A stretch of 64,000 nt of DNA from Polytrichum commune (Eukaryota > Streptophyta > Polytrichopsida > Polytrichales > Polytrichaceae): NCBI GenBank assembly GCA_950295325.1, contig OX485804.1, forward strand, positions 39,556,001 to 39,620,000. Direction: 5' to 3'. Shown here in pieces: positions 13,929 through 48,090 of the stretch. The translations under genes were made by a program, and so were the position numbers. How positions within the stretch are numbered: the stretch's first letter is position 1; each line of letters starts with the position of its first letter. Under the pieces are notes generated by a model, which saw nothing but the letters and a program-made list of their open reading frames with translations, searched no databases and was not told the origin of the DNA.

Positions 13929-14620
13929 GGTCACACACTTTAAAATCATAATGAACACTGCTATAGCCACTTGATCATGCACATCAAGGTTGTTTTATTT
14001 TGCAACAAGAGCCATAATCTCTCCAATTGTCTTCTGCTTGATGATTTGGAAATCACCTTATGAAAGGAAGGCATATTCCTTGTTGTGAAGCTTGGTAAAG
14101 CATGATTAGTGTAAAGGAGACTAGTCTCCCATTCACGCAGGTGTAGCAGAACACTAATGTTTACTTTATTTACAATAGGGACACACACCTTAAAATCATA
14201 GTGAACAATACTATAGCCACTTGATCATGCACATCAAGGTTGCTTTATTTTGCAACAAGAGCCATAATCTCTTCAATTGTCTTCTGCTTGATGATTTGGA
14301 AATCACCTTATGATAGGAAGGCATATTCCCTGATGTGAAGATTGGTAAAGCATGTTTAGTTTAAAGGATACTAGTCTTCCATTCACGCAGGTGTAGCAAA
14401 ACATTGATGTTTATTGTATTTACAATAAGGCCACACACCTTAAAATCATAGTGAACAATGCTATAGCCACTTGATCATGCACATCAAGGTTGTTTTATTT
14501 TACAACAAGAGCCATAATCTCTCCAGTTGTCTTCTGCTTGATGATTTGAAAACCACCTTAAAAAGGAGATTGGTCTCCCATTCACGCAGGTGTAGCAGAA
14601 CACTGATGTTTACTTTAGTT
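13929..14620 (+). repeat. Tandem repeat of ~248-250 bp, 2.8 copies
   Basis: Copies start at 13929, 14177 and 14427, each with ACACCTTAAAATCATARTGAAC or a close variant. The third copy lacks about 50 bp. Each unit carries a GGAGACTAGTCTCC palindrome or a mutated form of it, and a TTCACGCAGGTGTAGCA block. No coding content is seen. Confidence 0.88.
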
Positions 14621-16477: not shown

Positions 16478-17491
16478 GCCCATGAGACCATTACCAGAGG
16501 AGAAGAGGTTGAATGCTATAGCCTATCGCAACATGGGCATAGCACACATGAAGTGTCACAATTGTTGGGTATCTCTCAATCTACATGCTCTAGGATTTGT
16601 AGAGAGTGTGTTCCTCATGTGGAGCCTTGAAGAGGGGGGCGCCCAAGAAGCATCATCCCTGCTCAACGACAAGCATGTGTAAGAGCCATCATAGTTGATG
16701 GACTAGATAATGTTGTAGATGTTAGGAATGCTTTGAGTGAGCACTTGAATGTGGTAGTCAACATTAACATAGTGAGGCATGCACTTCATTAAGAAGGTCT
16801 TGGGTCATTAGAGAAATAGATGAAGTTGTTGTTCACGGCCAAGAATATGCATTGCAGGTTGGAATTTGCTCAACATCATCAAGATTGGACTATCCATGAT
16901 TTTTTGTGATGAGACTAAGATCAATCGATTTCAATCTTATGATTGCACTTGGTGTTGGGTGGGGATGGAGAATCTCAATTAAAAGCTCATCATATGAGTC
17001 GGACAATTAAATATGGAGGTGGTGCAATTTTTGTGCGGGGTTGTATGACTTCCCATGGCATGGATAACATATGTAAGATAGAGGGGAAGATGACATTAGC
17101 TCTGTATCTTAACATTCTTCAAGATGGGGTCAAGAAGACGATTGAATGGTATCATTTCAACCCTTCTCGTGTCATATTTCAGCATGATAATGATCCTAAA
17201 CATACTGCAAATTTAGCCAATCAGTGGTTGTCAATACAAAATATTAATGCACTTACTTGGCCTCCTCAATCACCTAACCTAAATTCAATTGAGCATGTGT
17301 GGGCACTTGTGACACGAAAATTAAATGAGTATCCAACATCATCCAAAGGAATGTTTCAATTGTGGGAGTGTGTGCAAGCTTCTTTTCATTCTATCATTCA
17401 TGAGCAATGTCAAAAGTTATATCATAGCATGCCCAATTGTATTCAAGTTGTTTTAGCTTCTAAAGGAGGTGGAGAAATTATTGATCTATAG
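16478..17491 (+). pseudogene. Tc1-type (DD34E) transposase, decayed
   Basis: The start encodes MRPLPEEKRLNAIAYRNMG, and after a frame shift EVSQLLGISQSTCSRICRE, a helix-turn-helix pair typical of Tc1/mariner enzymes. Stops follow at TGA near 16628, TAA near 16790 and TAG near 16816. The catalytic domain shows IFCDETK (first Asp) and, in the open frame 16943-17491, FQHDNDPKHTA (second Asp) and PPQSPNLNSIEHVW (Glu). From the Asp of HDN to the Glu there are 34 residues, the Tc1 signature. Terminal inverted repeats and TA duplications were looked for and not found by eye. The enzyme would cut and paste DNA at TA sites. This copy cannot. Confidence 0.85.
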
Positions 17492-25843: not shown

Positions 25844-25854
25844 TCATGAAGGTA
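25844..25854. repeat. Target site duplication at the LINE 3' end (TCATGAAGGTA)
   Basis: This 11-bp sequence is repeated exactly at 40331-40341, at the other end of the element, as expected for target-primed reverse transcription. Confidence 0.82.
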
Positions 25855-25872
25855 GATAGATAGATAGAAACT

Positions 25873-25896
25873 CCGGTCCCTAAGGCTAGGGGCCGG
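25873..25896. other. Terminal hairpin at the LINE 3' end
   Basis: CCGGTCCCTA, loop AGGC, TAGGGGCCGG: ten-position stem with one non-Watson-Crick pair (T-G on the plus strand, A-C in the element transcript). It lies 4 bp from the TAGA tail. A role in recognition by the element's own reverse transcriptase is inference. Confidence 0.65.
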
Positions 25897-26098
25897 CGTG
25901 AATAAAGTGTCCGTTCGTAATGCCAATGAACCGATGCCCACAGGACAAAGGAAAATTGGGACAGTACTACTCTCCCCTTTCGAGGATGGACACTATAGTA
26001 GCCAGTAACCGAGTAAAGAAGGCTTGCTGCAGTTATCAGCACGCTAGGTTGTTAAGTTGATGGTATAAGGTGTGAGTTTACGGCTTTGGTGATTGCTA

Positions 26099-26170
26099 AG
26101 TCATGATTCCTCGGTTGGTTGAGGGAGGGTGTTAGATTGGGAGACGTTCCGGGTTCGATTCTCGTTGAAT
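26099..26170 (+). other. tRNA-like segment (A- and B-box-like) within the LINE 3' UTR
   Basis: The plus strand shows a possible D arm, CCTC then GGTTGGTT then GAGG. About 35 nt later comes a T arm with the B-box-like GGTTCGATTC closed by CGGG and CTCG. The anticodon arm and acceptor stem do not fold well, so this is a tRNA-derived remnant rather than a tRNA gene. It is antisense to the LINE. Confidence 0.4.
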
Positions 26171-26339
26171 GTGTAGTTCATGACTTGGTGATGCTGTTGT
26201 GTTTTTAGAGGCAGGAATGTGTTACCAACCAACCGGCTCTTATCCCTCCCCTGAGCTATTAGTTTAACATGCTTTTGACTTAGTAGGTTAGTTAATTTAT
26301 TAGTATATTGGTTTATTTGTTTGCGTTGTTTTAGCTTAT

Positions 26340-27003
26340 TTACTCTGTGGGGATTGCTTGGTTATTTTCTATACGTCTCTTGTGTAGGAGAATTGAGCTA
26401 GCATATTGTATGGCGATAGTGTTTATTGCTTTGAATGTGTTTTTGACATTGTTTTCGGAAATTTTAAATGATTGTTCAAGTTGTTTTATTGATGGGATGT
26501 GCGTGGTGCCTCTGGCTCCTGCTGTAATGACTATAAGTGGGTCTACTTTCCATCCTTGTTGGGTGATGTCGTTAATTAGTGGTTGGTATTTAAGGGTTTT
26601 GTTGTCAATTGTCTCTTGTGAGAATCTGTCGTTAGTGTATGTGAATTCGATGAATTGTACCGTAAGGTTATTTGATGGGTATGGTGGGGGGGATGCTTTG
26701 GTGTGGGAGTTCTTTAATACATAGGAGGTCAGGTTTGAGTCTAGCATTGCATTGGCATCTTTGTTGGGCAAATGTACAAGCTAATAGCCATGTTGGAACT
26801 GTATTTTCTTGTGGGTTGTTGTTAAATGTCCCTGCATTCATTAAGGTGTAGCATCTTGAATTTTGTGATGATAGAATTAGTTTTCTGATTTCCCATACGG
26901 CTTTGTTGTGTCTTTTGGTTCTAAGGGCGTGTATGTGATGTTGGTTACATTTTAGTAGTATATGTAGCCATGTGTCTGCATCCGGTGAGTTACAGATTGG
27001 GCA
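26340..27003 (-). pseudogene. CCHC finger and restriction-like endonuclease domain of ORF2
   Basis: A CCHC finger, C-X2-C-X9-H-X4-C, lies at 27003-26947 (starting CPIC). It is followed by KRHNKAV (26905-26913) and KPDLL (26728-26736). After the G7 frame change come FIEFTYTNDR, KTLKYQPL and a VITAGARGTTHIPS segment. This matches, in order, the CCHC, RHN, KPD, D/E and K-rich motifs of the R2-type restriction-like endonuclease. Glu stands where Asp is usual. In R2-type elements this domain nicks the target DNA. Here it coexists with an AP-type endonuclease in the same protein. Confidence 0.78.
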
Positions 27004-27364
27004 TGTATTGGATGGGAATCTTTCTCTGCCAAAAAAATAGTTGTTTTCTAGCGTTACCCATGTATTGACCGGTGCGGAATTTTAGGAGACTAGTCTTTTG
27101 TGAGTCTGTTATTATTGGGTTAGACCAGAAGTGGTTAGATATTTCGTTGTCTATGTCCGGGTTTGTTGTCCATTTGTTAATGTTGGGAAATTGTATTGCC
27201 AATTTTTTTAGGTTGTTGTCTCTATCATATTTAGTGAGGTATGTTTCTAGACATCTTACGGGGCCTTTATCTGGTCTTTTTTTTGGTCCCGGCCATGTGT
27301 CTTTTTGGAAGTAGTATGGTGTGGTATGTGCAAATTCATATGTTTTGGCCGCAAATCTGTATCT

Positions 27365-27800
27365 CTTTTTAGTGCCTTGCTTTGCGAGTTGGTCGGCTTG
27401 TTCATTTCCATCAATGTTTATGTGTGCTTTTACTTTATATATTGTAGTGGGTTGTGTTCGGTTTTTTATCATTTCCACTATAGATGTTAGTATAATTTTG
27501 TCAGCATGGTTGTTGTGTTGAGTTGGGTGTTTGATTTGTGTGTTGATTACGTATATGCAGTTTAGGCAGTCTGTAAATATGTGTGCGGGTTCATTCGGGT
27601 ATTTGGTTGTAATTATTTTAAGTGTTTTGTATATGGCCATTAATTCTGCCCTGAAGATGGTTTGTAGGCCGGGTAGTCTTTTTGATATACGTATTTCTGT
27701 TTTGGTTGGGTTATAGATTCCATAGCCAGCTTTCTCTTTTTTCCAGTGTCCGTCATTAGCTTTCATAGGTGGGATAAACGAGCCGTCGGTGTAGTAACTG
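27365..27800 (-). pseudogene. RNase H domain of ORF2
   Basis: In order: YYTDGSF (first catalytic Asp), GYGIYN, RAELMAIYKTL (Glu), HIFTDCLNCI (Asp), KVKAHINIDGNEQADQLAK (final Asp). All four acidic residues of RNase HI are present in this 610-codon open block (28822-26990). It would remove RNA from RNA-DNA hybrids during element replication. Confidence 0.92.
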
Positions 27801-30099
27801 TATTGTGGTGGAAATTTTAATGTGGTTTGTGTTTCGTAATTTGGTATTGGCGGTATGTTTGTAATTGATGGGTTGGTATGTGGTGGGTAGATTAGTTTAT
27901 TCCATTTAGTATTTTTGTTTACGGTTGTATGGTTTGGTGTGGGTGGGGTCATTTGTATATGGTATTGTGTTATCTGTAGGTTTTCTAGTGTTGTTTTAAT
28001 TGTGTCTATTTGGTTGCGGGTGCCGAAGTTATTTTGTCTGTGGTGGATGCAGAGGATGTGTATTGCTAATGGTTCTGTTAGTGGTTTATTGAGGTTATGG
28101 GAGTTTGTTGGTACATCGTATGTAATGGAATCTGCAGCGAAATGTGCTAGAACATGCGTGTCTGGGAATGGTCCTATATGTGGCGAGTAATTTTGGTACC
28201 AATTTGCGTCTGGTGTGACTATTAATGTGGTGGTGTTCGGGTCATTTTTGGCTGCTAAACGTGCCCAGTGTATTGCTTGTTGTGTCATTTCTTCGTTATG
28301 AGGGTGGGCATATCCTATTCCTTGCCATTTGTGTTGGAAAGCGGTGCCTAGTGATCCAAAGATTTTATCTCTTGTGAATGGTGAGAAATATTTTGTAATG
28401 TGTGTGGAGCATGTTATTGGTGAAGAGAAGTATGAGTGTGAAATGTTAAATGTTTTTGTAATGGAGTCAAGGAGGTTTTGTGGGAGAGTATGTTGTGATA
28501 CTTTTAGTGGGTCTTTTTTTGGTATGTGAGAGTGGTATCTTTGATATAGCCATACTATCTCCGTTTCGAATGGTTGTGGGGGTGGTATTAGGTCGTATGT
28601 CCTGTAGGGGTCTTTGTTGTATTGTTGCCACAGCCATTTTAGTCTGGTGGTTGGGATGGTGATGAGGTGTCTACCTGTGTCTTCGTATATGTGTGTTATT
28701 TCGTTTTGTGTTTGTATAGTGTGGTTTGTTGTGTTAATGTCTTTTTCTGGGTTACATTCTATTATTGATAATTGGGTGTGCGGTGTTATTGTAGGTGGAG
28801 GTATGTATCTTGAATCCTTCATTTGTGGGGGAGTTACATGGGTGTGTATTAGTTTTTTGTAATGGTTGTGTTGTTGTTTTGTATAGTATTATTTTAGTAG
28901 GTTGATGTTGTGTATGATTACTGAGGGATGGTTTTGTGGGAATAATTCCCTTTGTGCCATCCACTTGTAGTACGTTGTGTTGTTTTGGATTGACCATTCG
29001 CATAGGTATGAGTTGTATTGTTTTGTGATTTTATATTTGTCTTTCGTTGCATTTGATTTGTGGCTTAGTATTTTGTGTATAGGAAATTTTATGAAATTAT
29101 TTTTTATGTTGGGGTTGTTGGGGTTGTTGGGGTTGTTGTGGTGTTGGTAGGTGTAAGGGATTGTCCGAAGTTCTGGGTAATATTTCACTATTGTCTGATA
29201 TGTATTTTTCGTGAAGTGTGTGGATTTGTGGGTGACTATTACATTGGTTTGGGCAGTTTTGATTACATCTTCGTTGGCAGAATAGTTGTTCTGCTATGTG
29301 TAATGCGTTTTTTATTAATTTTGTCGGGGTTTTGTAGTAGGTTTGGAAGTCTGTAGGTGACATTAATTGTGTGCCATTTGGGAGGGAAATGTGTTTTATT
29401 TTACTTATATTTTGTGCTAGGAGTTTATATAGGAGCTTGAGAGATAGCTCGTTGTTTAGTTGTGGTAGTATGGTTGTGGCTTGGGATTTCCATTCTGTTT
29501 CGAGCTCAGATACGTGGAGTTGGAAGTTTGCTTCTATGCTCTTGAGGTGGGCCCCTCCTTCCTTCTTCATAAGAAATAATGTTCGTGTTGTAGGTGACCT
29601 TGTACAATCGTGGTATTTAATTCTATGTATGTCTTCTGTTCCTCCGTATTTTGCCAAAATGTGTTGTATGAGTCCTTTGTAAATTATGCCAAGTCTGCCG
29701 GGGTCATTGAGTGCATTTCTAAGTTGTTCACTGATACATCTCAAATAGGCATTTTTTAGTGAGAAGGCTTCTAATCCGAATAAATTGTGTGGCAGTTGGG
29801 TTATTATGTTTGCTGTATATTTGGAAAGGCCACATATTGTTTTTTGGATTCCAGTAATTTTTTTGTCTAGCTTTATGATGACTGGTATTGAATATGAAAC
29901 TGCGTAGAAGCTATAGGCTATACTGGCTCTGATAACAGTGTCTACCATACTTATTTTTTGTTTGATTGTTGCTGGGCAATTTGTTAATAGTTTGCATTGG
30001 TTTATCATTTTGGTTGTGGTGATGTGTGTTTGGAGTTTCCATTTTAATGATGGTACTAGTTGTATTCCTAAGTATACATATGGTTCATTTTGGTGTAGA

Positions 30100-31090
30100 A
30101 CAAGTATTGGTTGGTTCCTGTAGTTGATGTTATAGGATTGGATTATGGCTTTGAATATTTCAGGTTTTATTTTTGATTTGTTTGGACAGCCCGTGATGGC
30201 GCATTTAGGCACTCCCAGGTCCATTCCGGCCCATTCGCAATATTTGTCGAGTCTGTGTAGTTGGGTCTGTATTGATTGGAGATTGTTTGTGATAGCTGCT
30301 AGGTCGTCTGCGTATGCTGCAAAGCTAATTGTTAGTTTGGATGTTCCAAATGTGTATCCATTATGTCCTCTCTGTAGCCAGCGTAGTAGTGGTTCTAGGA
30401 ATATTAGGAAGAGGTATGGGCTAAGTGTGTCACCTTGTATTGTGCCTCTTTGTATTGGTATGAGTTTTGTTTTTCCAAAGTGTTCCCCTGTAAATATCGT
30501 ATTGGAGTTTGAGTAGATGTTTCCTATTAAAAATACGGCATCTTCTGGATATCCTAAGTCTTTAGTTACTGCTAGTAGTCTTGCATGGTCAAGAGATCCA
30601 AATGCGTTTTTGAAATCGATATATAATAGGTAGATGTCTTGGTTTGTAAATCTTGCGTCTTCTAGTGCAGCTATAAGGAGTTGAAGTTGTCTGGATGTGC
30701 TTCTTTCTGCTCTGAATCCTTCTTGGCTGTCGTGTAGGATCTGGTATTTTTCTCCGTATGCTGAGAGTATGGATGTAAGAGTGCTCGTAAAGAGTTTTTA
30801 TACTGTATTTGTGAGTGCAATGGGTCTATGATTTATTAATTTTGAGGGATCTCCTTTTTTGTATAGTAATATGGTTAGGCTTATTTTCCAGGAAGTTGGT
30901 ATTTGTTTTTGTTTGTAACAATGAGAGAAAAGTAAGAAAAGTAATTTGTGGAAGCTTTCGGGCATATTTTTTAGGATTATGTTGGGAATTCTGTCGGGGC
31001 CTGGCATTTTGTTGCTTGCTAGATTTTTTAGACACATGTCGTATATTGTTCTGTCGAAGTATTCGTGTAGTGGGGTTTTAGGGTTCCCTC
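30100..31090 (-). pseudogene. Reverse transcriptase domain of ORF2
   Basis: Motifs in order: KMPGPDRIPN, LLYKKGDPSKLINHRPIALTN, EGFRAERST, YIDFKNAFGSLDH (motif A), QRGTIQGDTLSPYLFL (motif B), FAAYADDLAAI (motif C, YADD at 30303-30314), then a YLGIQL-type palm end. A TAA at 30798-30800 lies directly before KLFTS, where Tyr is common in relatives. Otherwise the domain is open. Confidence 0.95.
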
Positions 31091-31949
31091 TTTTATTGAT
31101 GACAAATCCGTCTAGGTCATGCCACGGATATTGTTTAACACCACATGTGCATTTTGGTGTGTGTACTGGTTGGTGATAACATGTTGGTACAGTGGGCCTG
31201 TTGCTAATAGATTGTTGGTTGTGTATTTCGTTGGCTATGTCGGTGGGATTTGTAAGTATGGTGTTGTTTGCATATTTAATGCAGTCTAATGGGGGTGTGT
31301 CTTGGTTTTTGAAGACTCTTTTGTTAATTTTCTTGGGACTTTTGTCGTAAAGTAGTCTGTACTTAGATATGGCTTTTTTTATACATTCTTGGGTGTATTT
31401 TGTGGTGATTTTACGGGCATTTTTATGTGCGGTTTTGGCGATTTGGGCTATGGTTGTTATCTAGTCTATTTGATTAGGGTCTTGGTTGGGGGGGGGGTGG
31501 GATGGGAGTTTGGGTATGATTCCTTAGTTCTTCTATTATGGGGTGTGTTTGCCAATTTGGTACATTTTTTACTAAGTAAATTACTTTCCTGATTAGGTGG
31601 TAAGTGGAGAGGTGGTTTTTCCATTTTTTTTGGAGTTTTCTTGGTAGAAAGCCTCCTTGTTGTGATGTACGGTTTGTGAGGTCTGGGAGAGGTGGTGCAC
31701 TGCATGTATGTTGGATTTTATCTGAAATTTTTTGTATTAGATGGTCAAACATTGTGCATGTTGTTAGCCATTGTTCTTTGGTTAGTTGGTTTTGTTTTAA
31801 AGTGTTTGTGAGTTCATTTAATTCTGGTGCATTTTCTTCGAAGAATTTTGTTTTGAATTTTTCTATATTTGTTTGGGGGATGGGGTTTAGGATCCTCGGG
31901 GGTTTATCTGTAGTTGGTGGTAGACACCGGGCTAGTAGGGTGTTTGGTG

Positions 31950-32735
31950 GGATGTGTAGTGTTACTGGGGAGTGGTCTGAGTTGAGATTATGGGCGTTAT
32001 TTGTTGTTGATGTGTATAAGATATTGTTGGGTGTTTTAATGTAGTATCCGTCAATTAGGCTAGTTTGGTTATAGTCTTGACCCCCTTATCTGGAGTATAA
32101 GCTATTTGTGGGGATATATGTGAGTTGAAGACTATTCATAAATGTACGCCATTCTATATCTTCTGCATGTGGTGGTGTTGTGATATATCCGTTTTGTCGC
32201 CCGATGAGGGCTATGTCTCTGTTGAAGTCTCCGCATAGGATGTGTGTGTGGTTTGGGTGGTTAGTAGTTTGTTGTGTTATGTTTTGTTGTATAATTGGTA
32301 TTAGTCTTGTATCTTCTTCGTGTGATGGCATGTATATGTTTATTATTAGCCATGGTTCAAGGGGTTGGTTATTTAATTCTATTATTTGTAGATATGGTGA
32401 TATCGCAGATGGGGTGGGGATTTTAGTGATGTTGCCTGGGTATGCGTATTTTTTGTTTATGAATGTTATGAGCCCTCCTCTTGCAGGTGTGTATGGCATT
32501 CTTTGTTGTATACACCTTGTTAATGTATGTGTATTGTTGAATATTAGTTTGTATTGCGGGAATAAGTTTTGTATGTATTTTGTGGATTTTGTTGCGGTTA
32601 ATTTAGTTTCTTGTATGGTGATAATTGCCGGGTTGTTTGGTGTGTTTGATATGAGTTGGTGGAGGTTTGGTAAGGCTGTGTTCAATGAGGAGGCATTCCA
32701 TGTGATTATGTGTGTGCTGTGATTTGTTGTTTGGT
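31950..32735 (-). pseudogene. AP-endonuclease (EEP) domain of ORF2
   Basis: Motifs in order: IITWNASSL, ITIQETKL (catalytic Glu), ARGGLITFI, WLIINIYMPS, THILCGDFNRD, the SLIDGYYI segment and NLNSDHSPVTLHI (SDH at 31972-31980). A single TAA (32086-32088) interrupts the frame just after YSR. The full set of apurinic-endonuclease-type motifs is present. In LINEs this domain nicks the target to prime reverse transcription. Confidence 0.92.
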
Positions 32736-33348
32736 TTGTTTGGGGGCGTATTATGGGATAGTTAGGTGGTGGTGGGGGATGTGAATATTCGTGTAGGGGT
32801 TCATTATATTTTAGGGATTCTGAGAGTAGGTTTGTCGGTAGGAAGGGGAATTTATCTGTCAACATTTGAATGGTTAGGGGACCAATGCTTTCTTGGATAA
32901 AGGTGTAAAGTTCTTTGTGGATGGTGTTGGATGGGTTGACAATGCTTTGGTTTGTTTGCAGGAATTGTGTATATGGGTGTGTGGGTGTGATGTGTCTTTC
33001 TGGTGGGTTTTGAAGTGATGCCATTTTTTCTAACACCTTTGTTGTCCAATCTGGTACCGGGGGTTGTATTAGTATGTGGTTACATGTCTCTATACGTGGG
33101 CTAATTGTGGTAATAAGTGCATATAATATACGTGGGGGTGGGTGGTGTTGGTTTCTATGGATGTAACTAGATAGGTATGGATATTTGTCACTTGCGTCTT
33201 GGTGGTTTGGGTGTGTTATATTTATGATAGGAGAGAATTGTTTTGCGAGGTGTTGGTAGTCGGGTTGTAATTTTATTGTGCATTCAATGAAATAACTTTT
33301 GCATCTGTTCCTATGTGTGGGTGGGTGTGTTTGTAGGATATTGGGCAT

Positions 33349-33414
33349 GGGGCCTGGGTTGGTTTCAATATCTCCGCTAAGTAGTAATAGTAAGTGTTCG
33401 AAAGATTTTTTACT
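33349..33414 (-). other. 2A-type ribosome-skipping site in ORF2
   Basis: Minus-strand translation reads FEHLLLLLSG followed by DIETNPGP, with the final Pro codon at 33349-33351 and a Met directly after it. DxExNPGP after a Leu-rich helix is the 2A consensus, in which the ribosome omits the Gly-Pro bond and continues. It would release the first 837 residues and begin the endonuclease-RT product at Pro838. 2A-like sequences are established in trypanosome and sea urchin non-LTR elements. Activity here is inference from an exact consensus match. Confidence 0.88.
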
Positions 33415-33554
33415 TATGGTGTGGTTTGTTTGTTTTTTGGGAGTTTCATGTCTTAGTATTTTATTATTATTTCTTTTATTGCCTATGTTGGTTTTAGTGG
33501 TGTTTTTGGGTGTTTGTTTGGTATGCGTGGTTGCATATATGAATTTGTGTTTAA

Positions 33555-33577
33555 GGGCGAGGCCGGTAGGCCGAGCC
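33555..33577 (-). repeat. ARPTGL element, copy 3
   Basis: Plus strand holds GGCGAGGCCGGTAGGCCGAG, encoding ARPTGL in the ORF2 frame. It is the GC-rich exception in a stretch that is otherwise G/T-only. Confidence 0.85.
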
Positions 33578-34541
33578 TTTTGGGGGTGGCTATTATGAGT
33601 TGTATGATGTATGATTTTGTTTTGGGTTTTAGGGGAGTTGGTTGGAGGTGGGGTGTTGTTGTGGTTTGTTGTTTTAGGGGTGGTGTAGGGTGGATTTGGT
33701 TGTTTGTTTGTTATTATTTCTATTTTGTATGTTTTTGGTTTTTTTTTGTATGTGTTTTTAGTTCTTTGTAGTTGTTTTATGTTTATTTCTATCTTATGCT
33801 TGTTTGTGCCTTTTTGGTTTTTTTTTGGTGGGTTAGGTGTTTTGTTTTTGGTTGAGTTGTTTGTAGGTTTTTTGTTTTTTGTAGATTTGGGTGTTTGTGT
33901 TTGTTTAGAGAGTTTCGATCTATTGTTGTTTGGTTTTGGGTTATTCGTTGTGTGGTTGTTTTTTGTTTTTTGTTTTATACGAGTGTAGGTGGTATGTATT
34001 GTTGTGTTGGTGATTTTGAGTTTGGGTGTATTTGTTTTGGGCCCTTTTTTCTTTGTTTTTCTTAGTGCTAATATAATTTGTGTGGGGGTTTTAAGATGGG
34101 GCAATTGTATGGGATATGGGTTTAGATTAAGGGGTTTTATAGGGTTGTGTTCTTGCATGCGTTTGGTAGGTTTTTTGGTATTGTTTTTGGGTATTATGCT
34201 TTGTTTTTTAGGTGTTTTCGAGATGTTTTTAAGGCTTTGGGGGCGTGATATGGGTATGTATGTCTGTGTTTTATAGTTGTTTGTATGTTTTAGTTTATTT
34301 TTCGGTAAGGTTGTGATGCTTCCATGTAGTGCTATTGTTTGTTGTAGAAGGGGTGTGTGGATTGTGGGAGGATTTTCTAGTTTTTTGGGGTTAGGGTTGT
34401 ATTTTGAATTATGTATTTTGGTGTAGTTGAGTGTTGTAATATATCTTAGGTGATTTGTGATCTTTTTTAGTGGTTGTTTGTTGATATATGTGGTTTGGTT
34501 TTTTTTATTTTGTCTTGTTTGTATTTTGGTTGCTTTGTATT

Positions 34542-34564
34542 GGGCGAGGCCAGTAGGCCGAGCT
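34542..34564 (-). repeat. ARPTGL element, copy 2
   Basis: Differs from copy 3 by A for G in the centre and T at the last base. It lies 987 bp from copy 3 and encodes RARPTGLA. Confidence 0.85.
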
Positions 34565-35531
34565 CGATTTAGGTGTTTTATGTTGGTTTTTTGTGTTTGG
34601 TGTGGTTGTGTATATTGGTTTATGATAGTACTTCTAGAAAGGGATGTGGTGTTGTTAGTCGTTGTATGTTTGGTTGTGTGTTTAACTAAAATGGTGTAAG
34701 ATGTGTTGGGTGTATTTATTCTTAGTTTGTTGTATTTTTTTGGTTGGTTGTATGTTTGTGTAGCCTTGAGAGGGTATGTGTTGGTTTTGTTTATTCCTTT
34801 GTTTGGGTGTTTATGTGTATGTGGTTTTGGGGTTTTGTATGTTGTGTTGTGGGTTTGTGCGTTTATATTTTTGTGTGTTTGGGTTTGTTTGGCGGGGTTT
34901 AGGTTTACTTTGTTGTGATGGTGTTGATTTTTTGTTTTTTGTGTGGTTTGTATAAGGACATGTGGTGGTGTTATTTTTTTTAGTATTATTTTGTATGTTT
35001 GTTTTAGTTTTATTGGGTTTGTTTTATGGATAGTATTTTTGTTTTTTATTTGTTCTTGTGTTTTACCGTTGATAGTTGACCATACCGTTTCTAGGGGGTG
35101 TGGTTCGTGTATTGTGGGGTGTGGTTCTAGTTGTTTATGTGGAGGGTAGTTATTATTAGTGGGTTTTGTGTTTTTTAGGTAGGTGTGTTGTTTGGGCTTA
35201 TTTTTGTTTTTCTTTTGTGTATGGATGGAGTTGGTTTTTGTGGTTTCGTTTGTGGTTCTTATTGTGGTTTTTGTGTTTTTGTGTTTGCTTTGTTTGTTTG
35301 CTTGGTGATTGTTATAAGGTGACGGGATGTATGTCTTCTTATGGTTAGGTGTGGGTTTGGTTTTTAGTTTAGCTAATTTTGTTTTGAGCTTGTATATTGT
35401 ATATTGTGGGGTATGATTGTTATGTTTATTTGTATGTTTGTTGTTATATTGTTTGGGTGGTGTTGGGATGTGGTTTGTATTTTGTGAGTTTGATGTTTTT
35501 GTTTTTGTGTGTTTATATTGGCTTTGTCTTT

Positions 35532-35554
35532 GGGTGAGGCCGGTAGGCCGAGCC
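35532..35554 (-). repeat. ARPTGL element, copy 1
   Basis: Differs from copy 3 by T for C at the fourth base. It lies 990 bp from copy 2 and encodes RARPTGLT. GGCC-N4-GGCC can form a short hairpin. Confidence 0.85.
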
Positions 35555-35897
35555 CTTTTTAGGAGATAGGAGTTTTTCCATATTGCCTTTTGATGTGTGT
35601 TTTGGAGTCTTATTTTGTATCTTTTGTGATGTAGGGTGTGTTTTATTGTATTGGGTTTGTGTGGTTTGGGGTGTGTTGGTTTTGAGTTTGTTGGGTTGTT
35701 GTCTTTTGTTTTGGGTGGGTTTTTTTGTTTTGGTTTTGGTTTATGTTTTTGTGTGGAAGCATTTAAGAATGCTTTATTTGTTATTGTTTGTTTTGTTACT
35801 TTAGCATTTCCAAATGCTATTGGTTTTGTTCTTTTTTCTTTTCTTTGTGTGGATACACACATTTTTGGAAGGTAGGCTATGTGGTTGGTTTTCCAAC

Positions 35898-37676
35898 CTA
35901 GTTTTCCAATTGGGGTTGTGATGGGGTGAGGATGGAGTCGAGTGCTTTGGTTGTCATGTTGACCGCTTGGGATGTTAGTGTTAGTTGCTTTCTTATTTCT
36001 TCCAATTGTTGTTTGACGTGTGTTGTTAGATTCCGGGAGATTCTTTCTTCCCGGACATCCGCCTCCAAAGTGACTTCTTTCTTGAACTCTCCCATTTCTT
36101 TATGTATTTCCGCGGTGAGTTCTGCTTTGAGTTCGGTTATTAGTTGTCCGTTCCGTTTGTCTATGGCGGTTTCGACTAGAGTATCTAGGTCTTTAGGTGT
36201 AAACATGGCACTTTTACCTTTGCTTTGAGGTGCATTCCGGGTGGCTTCAAGGGTATCCGCAATTGCGGTGGTGATGTCACAAAAGCCTAGTTTCTCTTGC
36301 TCCTCCTTGGTGGGGGGGATTGCTCCTTGAAGACTTTTTGGGTGGGGCACAAAGCTAACATGCTTACCAAATATTTCAACGGTCTTGCCTACCCATTGTC
36401 TATAGACAATGGCGTTAAGGCATTGAACATTGGCCGTACCTTTGTGTAGCTCTCCTACTTGACCCGGGAAGTAAAATGAAACTACATTTAATCCCCCTAG
36501 TACGGCTTTAATGGAATCCTTTGTGTCCTCTATTTTTTTCATCTTATGGAGCCCATAGAGACATAACATGGTTGCATTTTTTCTTTTGATTTCATCCTCC
36601 GTGAGCCCTTCTCCACGGCTTCTCCTTTCCGCTTTGGCCGCTTGAGGCGTGATTACTTGCATGAGTTCATGCTTATAAGGGACTAAGTATTGGATGATCC
36701 TATTCGCTTGTGTGGGTGTGGTTGAAATGAGCCAACCCCATGTCTCCTCCTTGACCTTTTGGACGCTTGCAATTTCGTAATCATAACCACGCCTAAAGCT
36801 CTCAATTAGAACGTCTCTTTGTAATTCACTTGCGGAAATGAGATGGAGTTTTGGGTTCTCAATTTTGGTGGAAAGCAAGGTGTTCCTTGCTATTGAGTCA
36901 TAGCACTTGCAAGTTTTCCCTAGGGTTTGAATGTTGTCAAGTGTCAAGATAAAGGGGCGTAGCCCCTTTAACATGCCAATGCCATCAATTCTTGGATGTT
37001 TAAGGTGAATTTTAATTGTCCCCGTCCAAAATTTGATCTTGCTATTCCTTTCCTTCTCCTTGCAAGGTATGTAGATAGGCTCAGCTAGTCCCATCCCTAA
37101 TTCAATGCTCATGAGTGCAAGTCTAGTGTTAGCCATTGTAAGTATCTCATTGTGAGTGTAATCCTTTGATGGTCTCTCAAAGTGAATGGCTATATGGTAA
37201 TCAAGGGAGAGCCCTGTACCTGGGTCAACTTCCATTTCGATGGGTAGTTGCGTTAGGTTGAAATGCTGCCCTCCTTTCCCATCCGGTCTCTCTAGAGGGT
37301 AAAGGAGTTGCTTAACGTGTGGGAATGCAATCTCACCAAGATGGCTCAACTCTTCCGCTTCCACCTCCGATATGCCGGATTTGATAAGGTCCTCCTTCTT
37401 CATGGATGGCCTACAATCTTTTGGTTTGATCCCTTCATCAATGGCAAGTTACTCCATGGCCATGATTCCGAGCCAAAAGTCACGGGGTGTCTCCTTCAAT
37501 CCGGTTGAGAGTTCCATGTTCTTCTTCCTCTTGCTTGAGCTACCTCCCTTCTTAGTTTCTTGTGTTCTCTTGGGTTGGTTAGGCTCTATCACCATAGTAT
37601 CCTCGGTGTCTTCCATGTTGGTGTCCGTAGGACTTCTCATGATCGCTTCGTGTACGGCTTTACCTCTGTTCGCCAT
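35898..37676 (-). pseudogene. LINE ORF1 protein, 592 codons with one in-frame stop
   Basis: The start ATG at 37676 opens MANRGKAVHEAIMR. TAA at 37449-37451 (codon 76) lies between MAME and LAIDEG, one C-to-T change from Gln (CAA), and the frame then stays open for 501 codons after Met 37403. Base use is balanced, unlike ORF2. The last ~100 residues are rich in Glu, Lys, Leu and Ala in heptad-like order, so a coiled coil is likely. I recognise no RRM or CCHC motif. By position it should be the nucleic-acid-binding ORF1 protein of the element. That role is inferred from place alone. Confidence 0.7.
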
Positions 37677-40330
37677 CTGTTGATCACAATTAATTCCAAT
37701 GTAAGTATTGATGCTTTTGTCTCCTCCTCCCTTTTGCGCGTGCAATCGGGCTTTGTAGAGGAGACTAGAGCTTTTAATTGTGTGGGTGCAAGTGTTAGGT
37801 ATTATATGCGCTATTGTATGGTGATTTTTAGTTTTCTTTGCTGGTTTGATTAGAGGTATGTGGTTATGACGGGAATGGGTATAACCTGTGTTGTTCTTAT
37901 TCGTTAAGTTTGCTGAAATTGAGAAGCTGAAATGATGGCACAATGAGTTAGGGGACTTACCTGTAGTGTAGTCTTGAGGTGTTGTCGTGCTTTGTATCTT
38001 GGTGTAGGTCAGTGCTTGCATGTGTTGGTGTTGATGCGGTGATGTAGATGAGTTTGCTCCAACTTGTCGTAGTGGTGGGGTGGAGGGGCTCAAGCTGTTT
38101 GGTTCGAGGAGGTAGAGCCGGTGTGCTCAAAGACAGTTTCGTATGATGTGGGAATTCGGAGATTGTAGCACCTCTTGATTTGCCAAACACACACTCTTAA
38201 CCCATCCAGCACGCTCAGTTATGGGTTGGGTACTTACAGTTCCGAGGACCACACATCATTACTCAGTCGGTCTTTGATACACTCCATGCTTGGGTGTAGT
38301 GTGTTCACGCTGATAGCAAGGCCAACCTACTCGGTGTCCATGAATTCTAAGTGATAGAACCAATGCTATGTTCCTACACTCTGCCGAATAACCCCCCAGC
38401 TTGCTCAGTTTGGGCTCTTGGTTCTATTACACTTGAATTACACACACACCTGATGTAGTATCAATCTATGCTGGCACAAACAACTCTACTGTAATCTATC
38501 CTAGGCACACAGCGGGGAATCACCCCCTTTGCTTGGGTTAGTCCCAAGCAGCTTGACTAAGAGACCTACTCCTGAGCAGATTGATTGCACGGTTTGTTGC
38601 AATAGGCTGTCGGTTTGTAATTGGGTAGAGTTTGGGCAATTCGGTGAAGTGGATCAGCTGTTCCGGCTGAGATTTGGTATCGGGGCAGAGGAGCGAGCCG
38701 CGTGAGCAGACTCTGTGGGACAGACTTCGTGATCGGCCTTCAGCAGAGGCCTCGATACCAATCTCTGTAGGTGCTCTACCATGAGTCACCTACTGTTGTC
38801 CTCTTGTCTGCTACCAGGTCTCCTCGGAGGTTGTCTCCGTGGACTCTGAATTTCTTCTTAGGCACAAACTACACATTGATCGAAAATACACCGCAAGCAA
38901 TCAGCAAGGAAACTGGTTCCTAGAGATCTTACAGGGTGGTTGTCGGCAGTGAGCGTTGTATGTGTCCTCCGAAGTCCAGACTCCACGAGTGTGCTCCGAG
39001 AAACACCGCCGAGGGTTTCTTCCCGGTTCTGCGATGTGATCCGGAGGTGAGTTCTCCTTGGGTGTTCTCCGTCAGTGGGCGCTCTCGGGCTCTGCAGTAG
39101 GCTTCGGGGTGATCTTCCCTTGGATGCTCTCCCAGGACTCAAATGCTTCAGGTTGAATCCGAAGATTGGACTCCTTGGTGTTCTCTGGGAGACACCGAGT
39201 TTGTTCTCCGTGATCTATTACCTTCGATCAATCAGGTCCTGGGAGACTCTCCTGTTGGGGTCTCCGAAATTTCTCGAGCGCTCTCTGAGAGTCTCGTGAG
39301 GTGGCCTCTTCGAGTAGCCAGCTTGAGCATTCTTCGATTTTGTCGAAGGATCTGCTTGGGCGACTACGCTGGGAGGTATCTCTTCGGTATCCGTGAGCGA
39401 GATCCGTACTGCAGAGGAGTTACTCACTGGGTTACACTCCGAGGGCCTCCGGGGAGACCTTTGTGGGTGATGGGTCTTCCACGATCGTTCACCGAGAGTC
39501 ACCTTAGGTGGTCTACTAGAGCTACCCTTGAGCACTCTCTTAGATTGTCTAAGGTGATCTGTGTAAACAAGCTTCGGGGCTCTATGAACCAGGGAGTGTG
39601 GTCCCTGGTCGAACTGTGAAGGTCATGGTTCTACAAGAGATACCTGCCTCTGTATCCGTGATCGATGCCGTGGTTGTGAGCACAGATCCCTTGACTCGGG
39701 CAGCCGAATTGCACACACGTGGTCTCCAAAGTGTTTCCCGTGGGCGGTGAAGTTCCAAGATCTCCCGGAGATCTCTCGGGTAGTCCCAGTGCACTCGTTT
39801 AGATTGCCGAGGGCGATCAGTTTGAGCGGCTTAGCTTCTACCGTTGGGTGGCTACTCTAGCCGATTCGTGGTGTGCCGTCCGGATCCCCGAGTTGGGCTT
39901 TGTGGGTCGCTACGTTCGACGTCGATCACGGTGTTCGGTCAGCTCCACACTCCTGGGTTCCTTGTAGAAGCCCCCGTAAGCATCCTTCGAGGGCAGCCTG
40001 TTACGGTGTCCACTAAGATTCGCCGGCGGTCACCAGCATCGAGTTGAGAAGAACTCCAAAGGGCGATCTACATCTATTCCGACAGATCTAGAGTGTTTGC
40101 AACTAACGCGTCCTATCTGCTGCATTCGGTAACTCAGTCTAAGCTGTTCATACTTCTACGGGTAGCTTGAATATGCACACACTGCTTGTGTTTGGTATTG
40201 ATGAGATTGGGATCACCCACATCGTCTGTACTCTTAACACAACGTGTTTGCAGAAGCTCAAACGGCTATCACGGCACCTCCTCCCACCCTCCGCACTTTC
40301 AGAGCTCTCTCACGGCCATCCTTCTCCCAT
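37677..40330 (-). promoter_or_regulatory. 5' UTR and putative promoter of the LINE
   Basis: About 2.65 kb upstream of ORF1, GC-richer than the surroundings. Between 38500 and 40050 it has loosely repeated blocks (for example CTCTGAGAGTC, CACCGAGAGTCACC, CCCGGAGATCTC; TTGAGCATTC, TTGAGCACTC; CGTGATCGAT, CGTGAGCGAG) at about 200-280 bp intervals. Such tandem 5' monomers drive transcription in several LINEs. No TATA box or start site could be fixed. Some stretches are open in one frame but show no protein features. Confidence 0.5.
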
Positions 40331-40341
40331 TCATGAAGGTA
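40331..40341. repeat. Target site duplication at the LINE 5' end
   Basis: TCATGAAGGTA, identical to 25844-25854. Confidence 0.82.
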
Positions 40342-41529
40342 CCTTTACACATGAGAAACTCGAGCCTCAAAGCAATGATCACATGGCGCTATGGTGAACT
40401 TTCTAGACTATCCATAAAGTCCATTGTTGAGGTCTCACCAATCCCAATTGATAAAGTGCATATGCCCAAAATCACATTTTTGGGGGTTTCAAATGTATGA
40501 TATCAGTCCATAGTGTTGGCTTTTGGTTTTAGGTTATGTGTTGGTTTTGAGTATGTTTATCTTAGACACCAATTTATTAAAAATCAATACAATCGTTCTC
40601 TTGGATTATCATGGCATGCTTGTATGGCTTTTGCATATAGTCATAAACCAACAATGAACCTGAAACATATATTATGTACCTTAATTGAAGATATTGGGGG
40701 CTTTCAATGTACGACGATGACACATGTTGCGAGTTCGAGGTTATGTGTTGGTTTTGGGTATGCCTATCTTGTAGATATCAATTTATTGGAATTCGATGCA
40801 TCCGTCCTATCAATGCATGCCTCATTGGCTTTTGTAGGTGTAGAGTCGCAAAACCAACAACAAATCTAAAACTAATGCCGTGAATTGGATTTGTACATTT
40901 CAGGGCTTCAAATGTATGAAAATGATACACAAGGAATGCCTTGTTTGGTTATTTATCTTAATTGGACACCTGTATTTGAGTGGTGTGTGGTTAGGTTAGC
41001 AAGCTAAGAACGGAACCCAACAAAATGTATAAGGGTTTGAACATAGATCGGTCTAGATGCTCAATGTCTTTAGACCACTCTAGACACAATAGCCAACACA
41101 TGTGGGGGATCTAGGTATTCATTTAAATATCAACACACATGCACTTTCGACAATCGTAAAAAGAAGTAGAATGGGGAAAGCCATTTTTTGTTGATGCTTC
41201 ATCATAAAATTTGCTAATGTAACACAAGAAATTTGTTGTGTAGATCTAACCAATTGAGGTTAGAGAATATGAAAAAGGAATCAAATAACACCTTAGTGTC
41301 AGTTGTGGGTTATGTTTTTGGTTTTGGGTGTTAGACATAAGTTTCTCATAAAGTGGATACATCCATCCTATCAATGTGCAAGCGCCAAGTCCGGAGTGGC
41401 AATAGAACAACTAAGCTTAACCCCTAAGCATCTGAGAGGACCAAACTGGGCCTCTCCAAGCCAAATTTTGTACAAAATTGTAGATTTAAGCTACATGCTT
41501 CCAATCTTTAGCTAATCATGTGAAGAGAA
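40342..41529 (+). repeat. Diverged ~205-bp tandem repeats, otherwise non-coding
   Basis: Two units (about 40470-40680 and 40690-40930) share GGTTATGTGTTGGTTTTGRGTATG, a TATCAATTTATTGG-like block and GGGGGTTTCAAATGTATGA-like ends. A further partial copy lies at about 41300-41400. No gene. Confidence 0.6.
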
Positions 41530-46072: not shown

Positions 46073-47844
46073 TTAGAAGTCGGAGGAGATGGGCTGGTGG
46101 GGGTGAGCGGGGGCGGGGGTGAGGAAGACCCCGTCGTAGATGAGCGCGGCAAGGGCAGCACCGATGAAGGGGCCGACCCAGTACACCCAGTGGTTGGTGA
46201 AGTCCCATGCGACCACAGCGGGTCCGAAGCTGCGTCCGGGGTTCATGGATGCACCGCTGAATGGTGCTCCGACGAAGATGTTGGCCAGCACGGTGAATCC
46301 GATTGCGAGAGGAGCGATCACTCCCACCGTGCCCTTCTTGGGGTCCACGGCGGTGGCAAACACCACGAACACCAGTGTGAAGGTGAGCACGATCTCCATC
46401 AACACAGCTCCCCATACCGACATGCCGGCTCCGATCGCGTGGCGAGCGACATCCTCTCCGGTGGTCACAGTCTTCAACACCCACGCGCCTGCAAGGAAAC
46501 AATCAGATCAAAATAATCCTTTAAAAAAGGTTGTCCTCCTCCACCGAAGTCGTCTTCACGTCGTTAGGCACTAACTTGCTTGAAGATCAAGCTACATCAT
46601 GACTAAGAATACTACGAAATCAACTAGGTAGACGATTAGTAGAATACGTGGAGAAATTAGATGCCCCTGGTAATCCAATAGAATGCATGCAAGCAAGCTC
46701 AACTCATCATCCCCAAACCTGTACAACAGAGCCCTGCTTCCTCCAAATATTATTGTGTCACTAATTAACAATCCAATTGGAGAACTGGTCCACTCTGTTG
46801 AGAAATTACATGACCTCTTCTTCTCGAACAACACTAGCAAGACAGGAAAATCATCCTGCGTCTGTACTACTCAAAACAGCAGAGTTGAGGCATCTGAGGT
46901 AGATGAGAACTAAGTAGGTAACGTTCTACGAGCAAGGAAGATAATACGTCCCTGGTAATCCAATACTATGCATGCAAGCTCAACTCATCAGCTGGAACTC
47001 TTTGGAACAGAGTCCGTCCTCCACCGGAGACTTGTTATGCGACCACCTAACACTTGTACGCCTAATCAATACGACGAGAAATCGGATGACGTCTGCTTAC
47101 AAGACAACACTACCCGAACACGAAATCCTACAACTACACTAACCAAACTCGTGGTTGAGTCACAACAATTATGACAGAGTTCAAGCCTTTGAGGCAGACG
47201 GAAACAACAAATCGTACAACAACTTGCTCATCTTCAGACTTGCTCAAATTACTGGTTCATTAATGACAGTGGACTCTGAATTGAGACCTCTGAGGTGGGA
47301 AGAAAACGATTGAGGTGGACATTGTTGCTGTGATGATCCAAGGGCTATCATCCCTGCTATGGGTTGACAGCCCAAATGCAATTTGCAACAACGGTGATGA
47401 TGATGATGAATATTGGTGATACGACTGTATCTATGATTTGGTAATCTTCGGGAATGAAGTCTGTCTCATTTCACTCTTGCAAGGTGGGAGAGATTTAATA
47501 GTACCTGCAACGGCACCCAAGAGCTGAGCGATCCAGTAGAGGATGAGTCTGACGACTGTGATCTGGCCAGCCAGAGCGAGACCCAAGGACACAGCGGGGT
47601 TGACATGGCCTCCACTGATGTTAGCGGTGGCAGCCACCAAGATGACGATGGCCAACCCATGGGCGATGGCAATCATAAGCAACCCTCCAGCTTCCAGATC
47701 GCCTGGGTGGATCTTCTCATACGACATCACGGTTCCCACTCCGATGAACACGAACAGGAACAGTGTGATGAACTCCGCCAACGCTCCTTTGAGAGCATCG
47801 GGGCTCGAGGCTTCCTCGGTATCACCAAACGCCAACTTCGCCAT
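46073..47844 (-). CDS. Tonoplast intrinsic protein (TIP-type aquaporin), two exons
   Basis: Exon 1 is 47844-47505 and exon 2 is 46488-46073. The intron (47504-46489, 1,016 bp) has GT and AG ends and splits a Gly codon after GAVA. The product is 251 residues, the usual TIP length, with six membrane spans. The first pore motif is HVNPAVS (NPA at 82-84). The second reads MNPGRS (196-198), with Gly in place of Ala. The predicted selectivity filter is His62, Ile184, Ala193, Arg199, the HIAR type seen in TIP3/TIP4-like proteins. The NHWVYWVGP segment and SSDF tail also fit TIPs. It should move water, and perhaps small neutral solutes, across the vacuole membrane. The start MAKLAFG is chosen over an in-frame start 15 codons upstream because TIPs begin this way. 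Confidence 0.95.
46640..47310 (-). repeat. Internal ~290-bp direct duplications in the TIP intron
   Basis: The block CCTGGTAATCCAATA, then ATGCATGCAAGC and CTCAACTCATCA, occurs at about 46664 and again at about 46951. A second block, TTGAGGCATCTGAGGTAGA-like, recurs near 46885, 47180 and 47285. The intron therefore grew by local duplication. Confidence 0.7.
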
Positions 47845-48090
47845 AGCTACAAATGCACTGCAACACAGACACAAGAATAGGCACAACAACCTCGAGCACA
47901 GACAAATACAAAACCAGCTGCCCTTCCTCTAGATCTTCCTCCTCCTTGTTGTGGAAGCTCTAACTGTGATGAGAGAAGAGTTGTTGTTGCAAGGTGGAGA
48001 TGATGAATGCGAGGAGGGGGGCAGGAGTTTTAAGATGTGGGGAACCCTGCCTCATCCCCTTCTCTTTTAAAACAACTAGGGGTGGGTGAT
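47845..48090 (-). promoter_or_regulatory. 5' UTR and core promoter region of the TIP gene
   Basis: On the minus strand a TTTTAAAAGAG stretch (about 48065-48076), about 220 bp before the start codon, could act as a TATA-like element. The sequence between is rich in short AC and CT runs, as in plant leaders. The site is a guess from position and composition. Confidence 0.3.

Follow-up and report, generated by a model that had tools for sequence, protein, structure and literature searches.

We analysed a 64,000-nt stretch of Polytrichum commune DNA (GCA_950295325.1, contig OX485804.1, positions 39,556,001–39,620,000), hereafter the window, in whose coordinates positions are given. One long interspersed element (LINE) of 14.5 kb fills positions 25855–40330 on the minus strand, bounded by target-site duplications (TSDs) and ending in (TATC)n. 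From 5′ to 3′, its parts are a 5′ untranslated region (UTR), a first open reading frame (ORF1), the leader of ORF2, a 2A site, an apurinic/apyrimidinic endonuclease (APE), a reverse transcriptase (RT), a PF12237 domain, RNase H, a CCHC zinc knuckle, a restriction-like endonuclease (RLE), a 3′ UTR, a stem–loop and (TATC)3 (Table 1). The limits proposed in a first-pass annotation of this DNA are exact, with TACCTTCATGA on both sides and (TATC)3 ending at 25855. Very probably it is the degraded remains of a LINE that was autonomous, had two endonucleases and a Dualen/RandI-like architecture, and belonged to a large, recently moved family with near-identical copies in a probable land plant. The genome comprises seven large contigs of 42 to 78 Mb and holds LEAFY-family genes, with six exon matches spread over three places (one of them L051 on C1); together with a plant-type aquaporin gene in the window, this makes the host a streptophyte and most likely a land plant, conceivably a moss with n = 7.

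The APE motif set that had been predicted (WN, QET, GDFN and SDH) is complete in the window, where it reads TWNAS, IQETK, GDFN and SDH (Pfam Exo_endo_phos E 3.7e-8), and it lies upstream of the RT in ORF2 (11 rows aligned). The RT has its YADD box (RVT_1 E 2.3e-22), the RNase H retains the expected acidic residues in DGS, RAE, TDC and EQAD (E 2e-15), and the announced CCHC finger, CPICNSPDADTWLHILLKC, and 2A site, GDIETNPGP, were both found. The C-terminal region carries RHN, KPD, IEF and KTLKY. The claimed order of domains within ORF2 holds in the window and in relatives, but the reading frame itself is not intact here. The window copy is dead, with at least four in-frame stops (37449, 32086, 30798 and 28889) and at least four frame changes (near 31465, 29100–29290, 27000–27080 and 26670–26780), and because of this decay no single ORF2 exists in the window. 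The first-pass annotation had also overlooked the PF12237 domain between RT and RNase H, which scores above its cut-off in the window (E 2.9e-11).

Other copies in the genome, which the annotation had proposed collecting, were found with a 3-kb DNA query against 407.8 Mb; this gave at least 49 matches (40 of 1482 first-look candidates scored), and 16 of these copies were fetched, 10 kb each. Stray three-letter matches aside, all 16 share one order of the domain motifs that are still readable, many of the frames being broken, and three copies (L002, L006 and L011) carry extra sequence between 2A and APE. A genome search with PF12237 returned at least 150 matches from 697 candidates, all above the curated cut-off, and none in 14 control genomes; 14 of the 150 places were fetched, picked mainly for long open frames. 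Two relatives, L017 and L018, run from the leader through the RLE in single uninterrupted frames of 2919 and 2924 codons, and Pfam recognises RVT_1 (3.9e-27), RNase_H (1.5e-14), PCIF1_WW (2.9e-12) and Exo_endo_phos (1.3e-5) in the 2919-aa frame. Since these frames lie at other loci, both endonucleases belong to one element, which bears out the proposal of a single plant element with APE, RT, RNase H, CCHC, RLE and 2A and excludes the chance joining that had been named as its refutation. The group moved recently, as a pair of copies from different chromosomes shows: over 9.6 kb their identity is 99.64%.

In the excerpts available for the papers cited here by PMC number, LINE-type RLEs are marked by RH at the first helix, a PD-(D/E)XK variant and a catalytic K that is the first K of KX2KY, all following a CCHC knuckle (PMC5678591). 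Residues R58, H59, N60, D119, E146, K162, K165 and Y166 of the element are invariant in 16 of 16 aligned rows, chosen from 31 sequences for an open frame over the region, and they are the set given for LINE RLEs in that source; RH, PD, E and KX2KY, as in R2 and its kin, are thus all present. In eight pairs, mismatches at the third codon position are 2.6 to 5.3 times the average of the other two positions, which places the RLE under purifying selection. The domain is also kept at 43% identity (104/241) in a distant sister lineage (L061, L057, L060; C5:33406900-33415400), which has the same domain order with KHAKY in its RLE and is 35% identical to L017 in the PCIF1-like region and 62% in the RT.

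The RT was placed in an unrooted tree of 21 rows, comprising nine of this group, eight other RTs of the same genome (two of which proved to be the distant lineage), three R2 and human L1. The group falls with the distant lineage in a single clade (100/99) that is separate from the L1 side (100/98), and the RT therefore does not fall inside the L1 clade. The group is nearest R2 (95/93 clade) in this long-branched tree, which holds no Dualen references. Against PDB, the RT profile finds R2 first (1.4e-29), with L1 (5.9e-17) after four R2 sequences and before R2Bm 8ibw (1.8e-16). Scans of viral_contigs with RLE, PCIF1 and RT queries gave no relative.

Two other accounts of this architecture were weighed. 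Two unrelated LINEs, one APE-type and one RLE-type, might lie side by side or have been joined by nested insertion, an idea that draws on the splitting of the window copy over several frames and on the extra sequence in L002, L006 and L011. The readable motif order is nevertheless the same in the 16 copies and, where covered, in the 14 relatives, a single TSD pair encloses everything, there is one RT clade, and the long unbroken frames found at separate loci suffice to refute it; we give this account practically no weight. The element might otherwise be a diverged plant L1 in which the RLE is a chance set of motifs. Plant L1s can carry RNase H and also have an APE (PMC9033089, in excerpt), and the RLE lacks a profile match, both of which would suit such an origin. 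Set against this, the RT clade stands apart from six L1-like elements of the same genome and from human L1, the RLE residues are invariant in all rows and survive in the distant lineage, and the tail is (TATC)n rather than poly(A), which leaves the L1 account very improbable. A single dual-endonuclease LINE is the reading we follow below.

PF12237 is misnamed, describing a CAPAM-like methyltransferase and not a WW domain (PMC7641849, in excerpt). Each of the 15 aligned rows, all selected for an open frame, matches it (best 1.6e-13), and a search of the 2919-aa frame for a WW domain found none up to E 0.1. Human ANPPFCEEL aligns with AHPhNEE of the element, where the catalytic Asn is His in all 15 rows. 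At this place A-H-P is invariant and the next residue is H, P or (L015) Y, so that no row reads NPPF; the distant lineage has AFPT there and scores 28.5 bits with PF12237 (E 1.4e-6), short of the curated threshold, which is 31.1. Drosophila reportedly has a PCIF1 that is catalytically dead, as the title of a paper in a reference list has it. The ratio of third to other codon positions in the PCIF1 core is 2.4 to 4.7 in seven pairs (eight were compared and seven gave a value), which indicates purifying selection. PCIF1 mutants of Asn553 and Phe556 are inactive, according to the excerpt of PMC10544176. Together with the loss of the catalytic Asn and the selection on the core, this favours a conserved, non-enzymatic domain that, judged from its sequence, is probably a binder of the capped 5′ end or of RNA and not a methylase. 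A host PCIF1 gene with NPPF was sought, and the 58 matches are weak (best E 0.0036), several being known LINE copies. A structure prediction of the window PCIF1 region from the single sequence reached a predicted local distance difference test (pLDDT) score of 33.5 and was not used.

The leader of the window copy, which runs from the ORF1 stop to the 2A site, is 841 codons long and free of stops in the 2A frame, against 50 in either of the other frames; its dinucleotide shuffles contain 38.9 stops on average, and none of 2000 reaches zero. Relatives give 0 stops in 547 codons (L017), 0 in 549 (L018), 0 in 277 (L020) and 1 in 549 (L019), an openness that is partly selected because these four, unlike the window, were picked for long frames. 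The stop-free leader of L020 counts because it starts at the ORF1 end of that copy. The old copies L004, L014 and L015, which have frame changes, contain 25, 36 and 42 stops in the 2A frame. Leader indels are mostly multiples of three between the window and these copies (20/31 with L004, 23/30 with L014 and 22/36 with L015) and are less so, or not, in other pairs (L015–L004 13/22, L018–L020 4/10, L004–L014 2/9 and window–L017 5/28). Mismatches between the window and L004 are spread almost evenly over the codon positions of the leader, with slightly fewer at the first (227, 283 and 276 of about 747), compared with 71, 38 and 174 of about 559 in the RT. The in-three indels and the near-even mismatches together suggest that the frame of the leader is kept and its amino acids hardly at all.

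Of the 14 rows in which the site can be read, 12, the window among them, fit the StopGo/2A motif (D/G/C/N)(V/I)ExNPGP as given in the excerpt of PMC12846837. L018 and L019 read GDIKPNPGP, which lies outside the motif, and a readable site is absent from 7 of 21 stretches that reach the region. The distant lineage has two 2A-like sites, GDIQPNPGP and GDIHPNPGP, both without the canonical E, about 0.4 kb apart and in different frames. The ORF1 ends of the window, L017 and L020 were checked by alignment; the upstream frame of L018 scores 68 against the L017 ORF1 end (shuffles at most 46) and 45, within the shuffles, against that of L020. A programmed −1 frameshift from ORF1 to ORF2 finds no support, since the offset is +1 in L018 and no XXXYYYZ heptamer occurs in any of the four overlaps.

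The leader also carries a 21-nt motif, GCTCGGCCTACYGGCCTCGCC, with 85 exact occurrences in the genome and none for the reversed control. Of the 85, 52 have a LINE copy no more than 20 kb downstream in the same orientation and one has it in the opposite orientation; the pairing used 137 listed LINE places, and the unpaired 33 are no contrary evidence. Where found, the motif occurs one to three times per sequence, in 12 of 16 leader-bearing copies and relatives (L002–L020) and in the window, in any of the three frames with respect to 2A, and it was not found in L001, L005, L008, L012, L013 or L016. Of the two relatives with an uninterrupted frame, L017 reads it in frame 0 and L018 in frame 1, so that its conservation is that of a nucleic acid and not of a peptide. 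Mean pairwise identity is 0.957 within the motif and 0.483 in the 36-nt flanks, a contrast that is partly by construction, the 15 places having been found by likeness to the motif. The predicted fold of GCTCGGCCTACYGGCCTCGCC pairs GGGC with GCCC and GGCC with GGCC around a 2x2 internal loop and ends in the loop UACC; its energy of -15.9 kcal/mol is matched by none of 200 shuffles. The folds of four variants, including two from the window, are weaker, with 3 to 10 of 200 shuffles doing as well. The hairpin was not found in the stretches read of the distant lineage, which reach only about 0.8 kb upstream of its first 2A.

The leader might instead be an untranslated A/C-rich spacer, open merely because T and G are scarce. 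Its base content (G 5%, T 13%) would suit this, as would the scant constraint on amino acids, the placing of a conserved hairpin in different frames, and the indels of four of seven pairs, which are not mostly multiples of three (L015–L004 being intermediate). Against it stand the absence of stops in one frame when each of the others has 50, the failure of every shuffle to reach zero and the in-three indels between the window and three old copies, and we hold an untranslated spacer to be unlikely. The PCIF1-like domain, for its part, could be an active methyltransferase acting on RNA or cDNA of the element, with HP[HPY]N or FPT rewritten for NPPF. Purifying selection on the domain, the invariance of AHP within the main group and the occurrence of other methyltransferases in retroelements (PMC5890265, in excerpt) would agree with activity. 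The catalytic Asn is, however, His in every row of the group and Phe in the distant lineage, and PCIF1 mutants of Asn553/Phe556 are inactive, so that activity seems improbable and a binding role is the reading we keep.

All 16 3′ ends that were read (15 fetched and the window) have TATC repeats after GC-rich sequence capable of forming a stem–loop, a constancy that is partly by construction because the 3′-end query contained the tail. Two of three forms of the stem–loop fold well (6 and 7 of 200 shuffles as good) and the third does not (78/200). Two types of 3′ UTR share one common terminus, and in copies of the 88% group roughly 0.9–2.3 kb of additional sequence separates ORF2 from that terminus (the 25855–26330 region of the window). 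TSDs of 11, 11, 13, 14, 12 and 12 bp were found in all six copies with both ends; each begins with T, preceded by G in five and by A in one, and no common target sequence was seen in the flanks of the six. The TSDs, the absence of a common flank and the tail fit target-primed reverse transcription without a fixed site, and the element is most likely a retrotransposon of this kind.

In the mechanism that we propose, a ribosome would enter the frame of ORF2 close to where ORF1 ends and translate the leader, whose product 2A would release, leaving an enzyme that may bind the 3′ stem–loop and tail. The APE would nick the bottom strand 3′ of an A (top strand G|T), and the new 3′ end could pair with the U of the UAUC tail and prime reverse transcription. 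RNase H would remove the RNA, and the RLE would cut the second strand 11–14 nt away. Least certain of these steps is that the PCIF1-like domain, without its catalytic Asn, may bind the capped 5′ end or RNA.

Several observations weigh against the reading advanced here. The knuckle is CX2CX9HX4C where PMC5678591, in excerpt, gives CX2-3CX7-8HX4C, and GW stands for its GXW, both near misses. Searches of the RLE rows against Pfam gave weak matches only (best 0.015), and the RLE profile found no R2 chain in PDB, its one match, to cadinene synthase, being due to chance. The C-terminal RLE of the first-pass annotation (RHN, KPD, E, K) is therefore upheld by its residues and not by these profile searches, and because no convincing profile match was obtained the assignment rests on literature-defined residues and on selection. 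Matches of the PCIF1-like family profile to PDB are similarly weak, with PCIF1 first (6irv E 0.099, 6irx 0.16) and a prefoldin next (0.17). No ORF2 start is conserved, ATGs in the 2A frame are few (two in the window), and the offset of ORF2 from ORF1 is −1 in the window, L017 and L020 and +1 in L018, which leaves the entry of ribosomes into ORF2 unexplained. Finally, either the APE or the RLE could make both cuts.

Table 1. Parts of the LINE and its flanking duplications in window coordinates.
Feature	Positions	Strand	Basis or remark
5′ TSD copy TACCTTCATGA	40331..40341	-	flank read
5′ UTR (2.65 kb, fast-evolving)	37677..40330	-	genome DNA queries
ORF1 (start codon assumed)	35898..37676	-	in-frame stop 37449-37451 in window copy
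ORF2 leader, A/C-rich	33376..35897	-	841 codons, no stop in 2A frame
Hairpin motif copy 1	35533..35553	-	motif search
Hairpin motif copy 2	34543..34563	-	motif search
Hairpin motif copy 3	33556..33576	-	exact motif match
2A/StopGo site GDIETNPGP	33349..33375	-	motif
APE domain, approximate limits	31960..32710	-	Pfam; in-frame stop 32086-32088 in window copy
RT, approximate limits	30060..31010	-	YADD 30303-30314; in-frame stop 30798-30800 in window copy
PCIF1/CAPAM-like domain	28208..28576	-	PF12237 E 2.9e-11; NPPF place reads AHPHN, AHPH at 28298-28309
RNase H	27371..27802	-	PF00075 E 2e-15
CCHC zinc knuckle CX2CX9HX4C, CPICNSPDADTWLHILLKC	26947..27003	-	motif
RLE, RHN..KPD..E..KX2KY..GW	26340..26913	-	residues; frame change inside, window copy
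3′ terminal stem–loop CCGGCCCCTAGCCTTAGGGACCGG	25873..25896	-	folding
3′ tail (TATC)3	25855..25866	-	sequence read
3′ TSD copy TACCTTCATGA	25844..25854	-	flank read

The 5′ part of the element is more variable. No Pfam family above its cut-off was found for ORF1 in a scan of the window and the 2919-aa frame, and the first part of ORF1 is 72–81% identical in 21 other copies. A 5′ UTR query (39500–40345) matched only itself in the genome, and the remainder down to ORF1 gave three weak matches at 69–70%. Part of the 5′ UTR (38900–40330) has a G+C content of about 52%, and the last 846 bases match only themselves genome-wide. Four of five other fetched 5′ ends are mutually alike and unlike that of the window, which suggests that 5′ ends turn over between subfamilies.

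Elsewhere in the window, the minus strand has two exons with NPA boxes at 46073–47928, which we take to be a plant tonoplast-type aquaporin, and fragments at 8087–9917 that resemble a plant MULE/FAR1-type transposase. A plus-strand frame at 16943–17491 (HDNDPKHTA, WPPQSPNLN) we likewise take to resemble a Tc1/mariner DDE transposase. A tandem array with a 250-bp unit lies at 13927–14567 (2.6 copies, 91% matches).

Dualen/RandI LINEs of green algae were reportedly described by Kojima and Fujiwara in 2005, and APE-type LINEs with 2A are said to have been described by Odon et al. in 2013. The latter resemble the present element in having 2A in a non-LTR (long terminal repeat) element polyprotein, whereas here 2A follows a leader of about 270–840 codons. 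In the excerpts consulted, Dualen combines APE, RLE and RNase H (PMC4640811, PMC3636483), and RandI is listed for green algae with (ATT)n and (CTATTT)n tails (PMC3747384). Assignment to Dualen/RandI agrees with the architecture deduced from the sequence, namely an APE upstream of the RT, a C-terminal RLE (by residues), RNase H and a simple-repeat tail, TATC in 16 of 16, that is not poly(A). Beyond the traits given for Dualen in these sources, the element has a streptophyte host, a 2A site, a stop-free leader with hairpins and a PCIF1-like domain.

With R2-type RLE LINEs the element shares RH, PD, E and KX2KY after a CCHC knuckle and an RT profile that finds R2 first, but it has two ORFs, an APE, RNase H, TSDs of 11–14 bp and no common target in the flanks read. 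It resembles plant L1 LINEs in its two ORFs, APE, RT and RNase H, and differs from them in the RLE, PCIF1-like domain, 2A, (TATC)n tail and separate RT clade. The PF12237 core and the SPxxC and FGSxG blocks align with 6irv, as expected of the PCIF1/CAPAM cap m6Am methyltransferase, yet the domain lacks NPPF, no WW was found and it is embedded in a LINE polyprotein. Methyltransferase retrotransposons (Symbiodinium LINE and DIRS, Klebsormidium Gypsy) likewise have a methyltransferase domain under purifying selection, though theirs are C5-cytosine DNMTs and in LINEs occupy an ORF upstream of the RT ORF, not the gap between RT and RNase H (PMC5890265, in excerpt).

Among the matches listed in open-licence papers, we found no PCIF1-like domain in a LINE and no dual-endonuclease LINE in land plants. 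What is new here is a plant dual-endonuclease LINE with an added pseudo-methyltransferase fold, whose role we infer, a 2A site, a leader of free sequence and leader hairpins; within the literature searched, this would be the first LINE whose polyprotein contains a PCIF1-like fold. As a tentative conjecture, which we consider possible and by no means probable, dual-endonuclease LINEs of land plants absorbed a cap-methyltransferase fold as a dead cap or RNA reader in their replicase, and their translated free leader would serve solely to keep ribosomes in frame to 2A and to carry packaging hairpins.

Elements with both APE and RLE have been cited as evidence for an origin of APE LINEs from the RLE type through replacement (PMC4640811, in excerpt), and in the parts of the papers found they are named only from green algae. 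A land-plant transposable-element review of 2022 gives, in its excerpt, only L1 and RTE LINEs (PMC9033089), and annotation following that scheme may miss elements such as this one. A leader that is kept in frame and free in sequence is an unusual translation arrangement, and near-identical plant copies with TSDs of 11–14 bp make the division of cuts between the two endonucleases testable.

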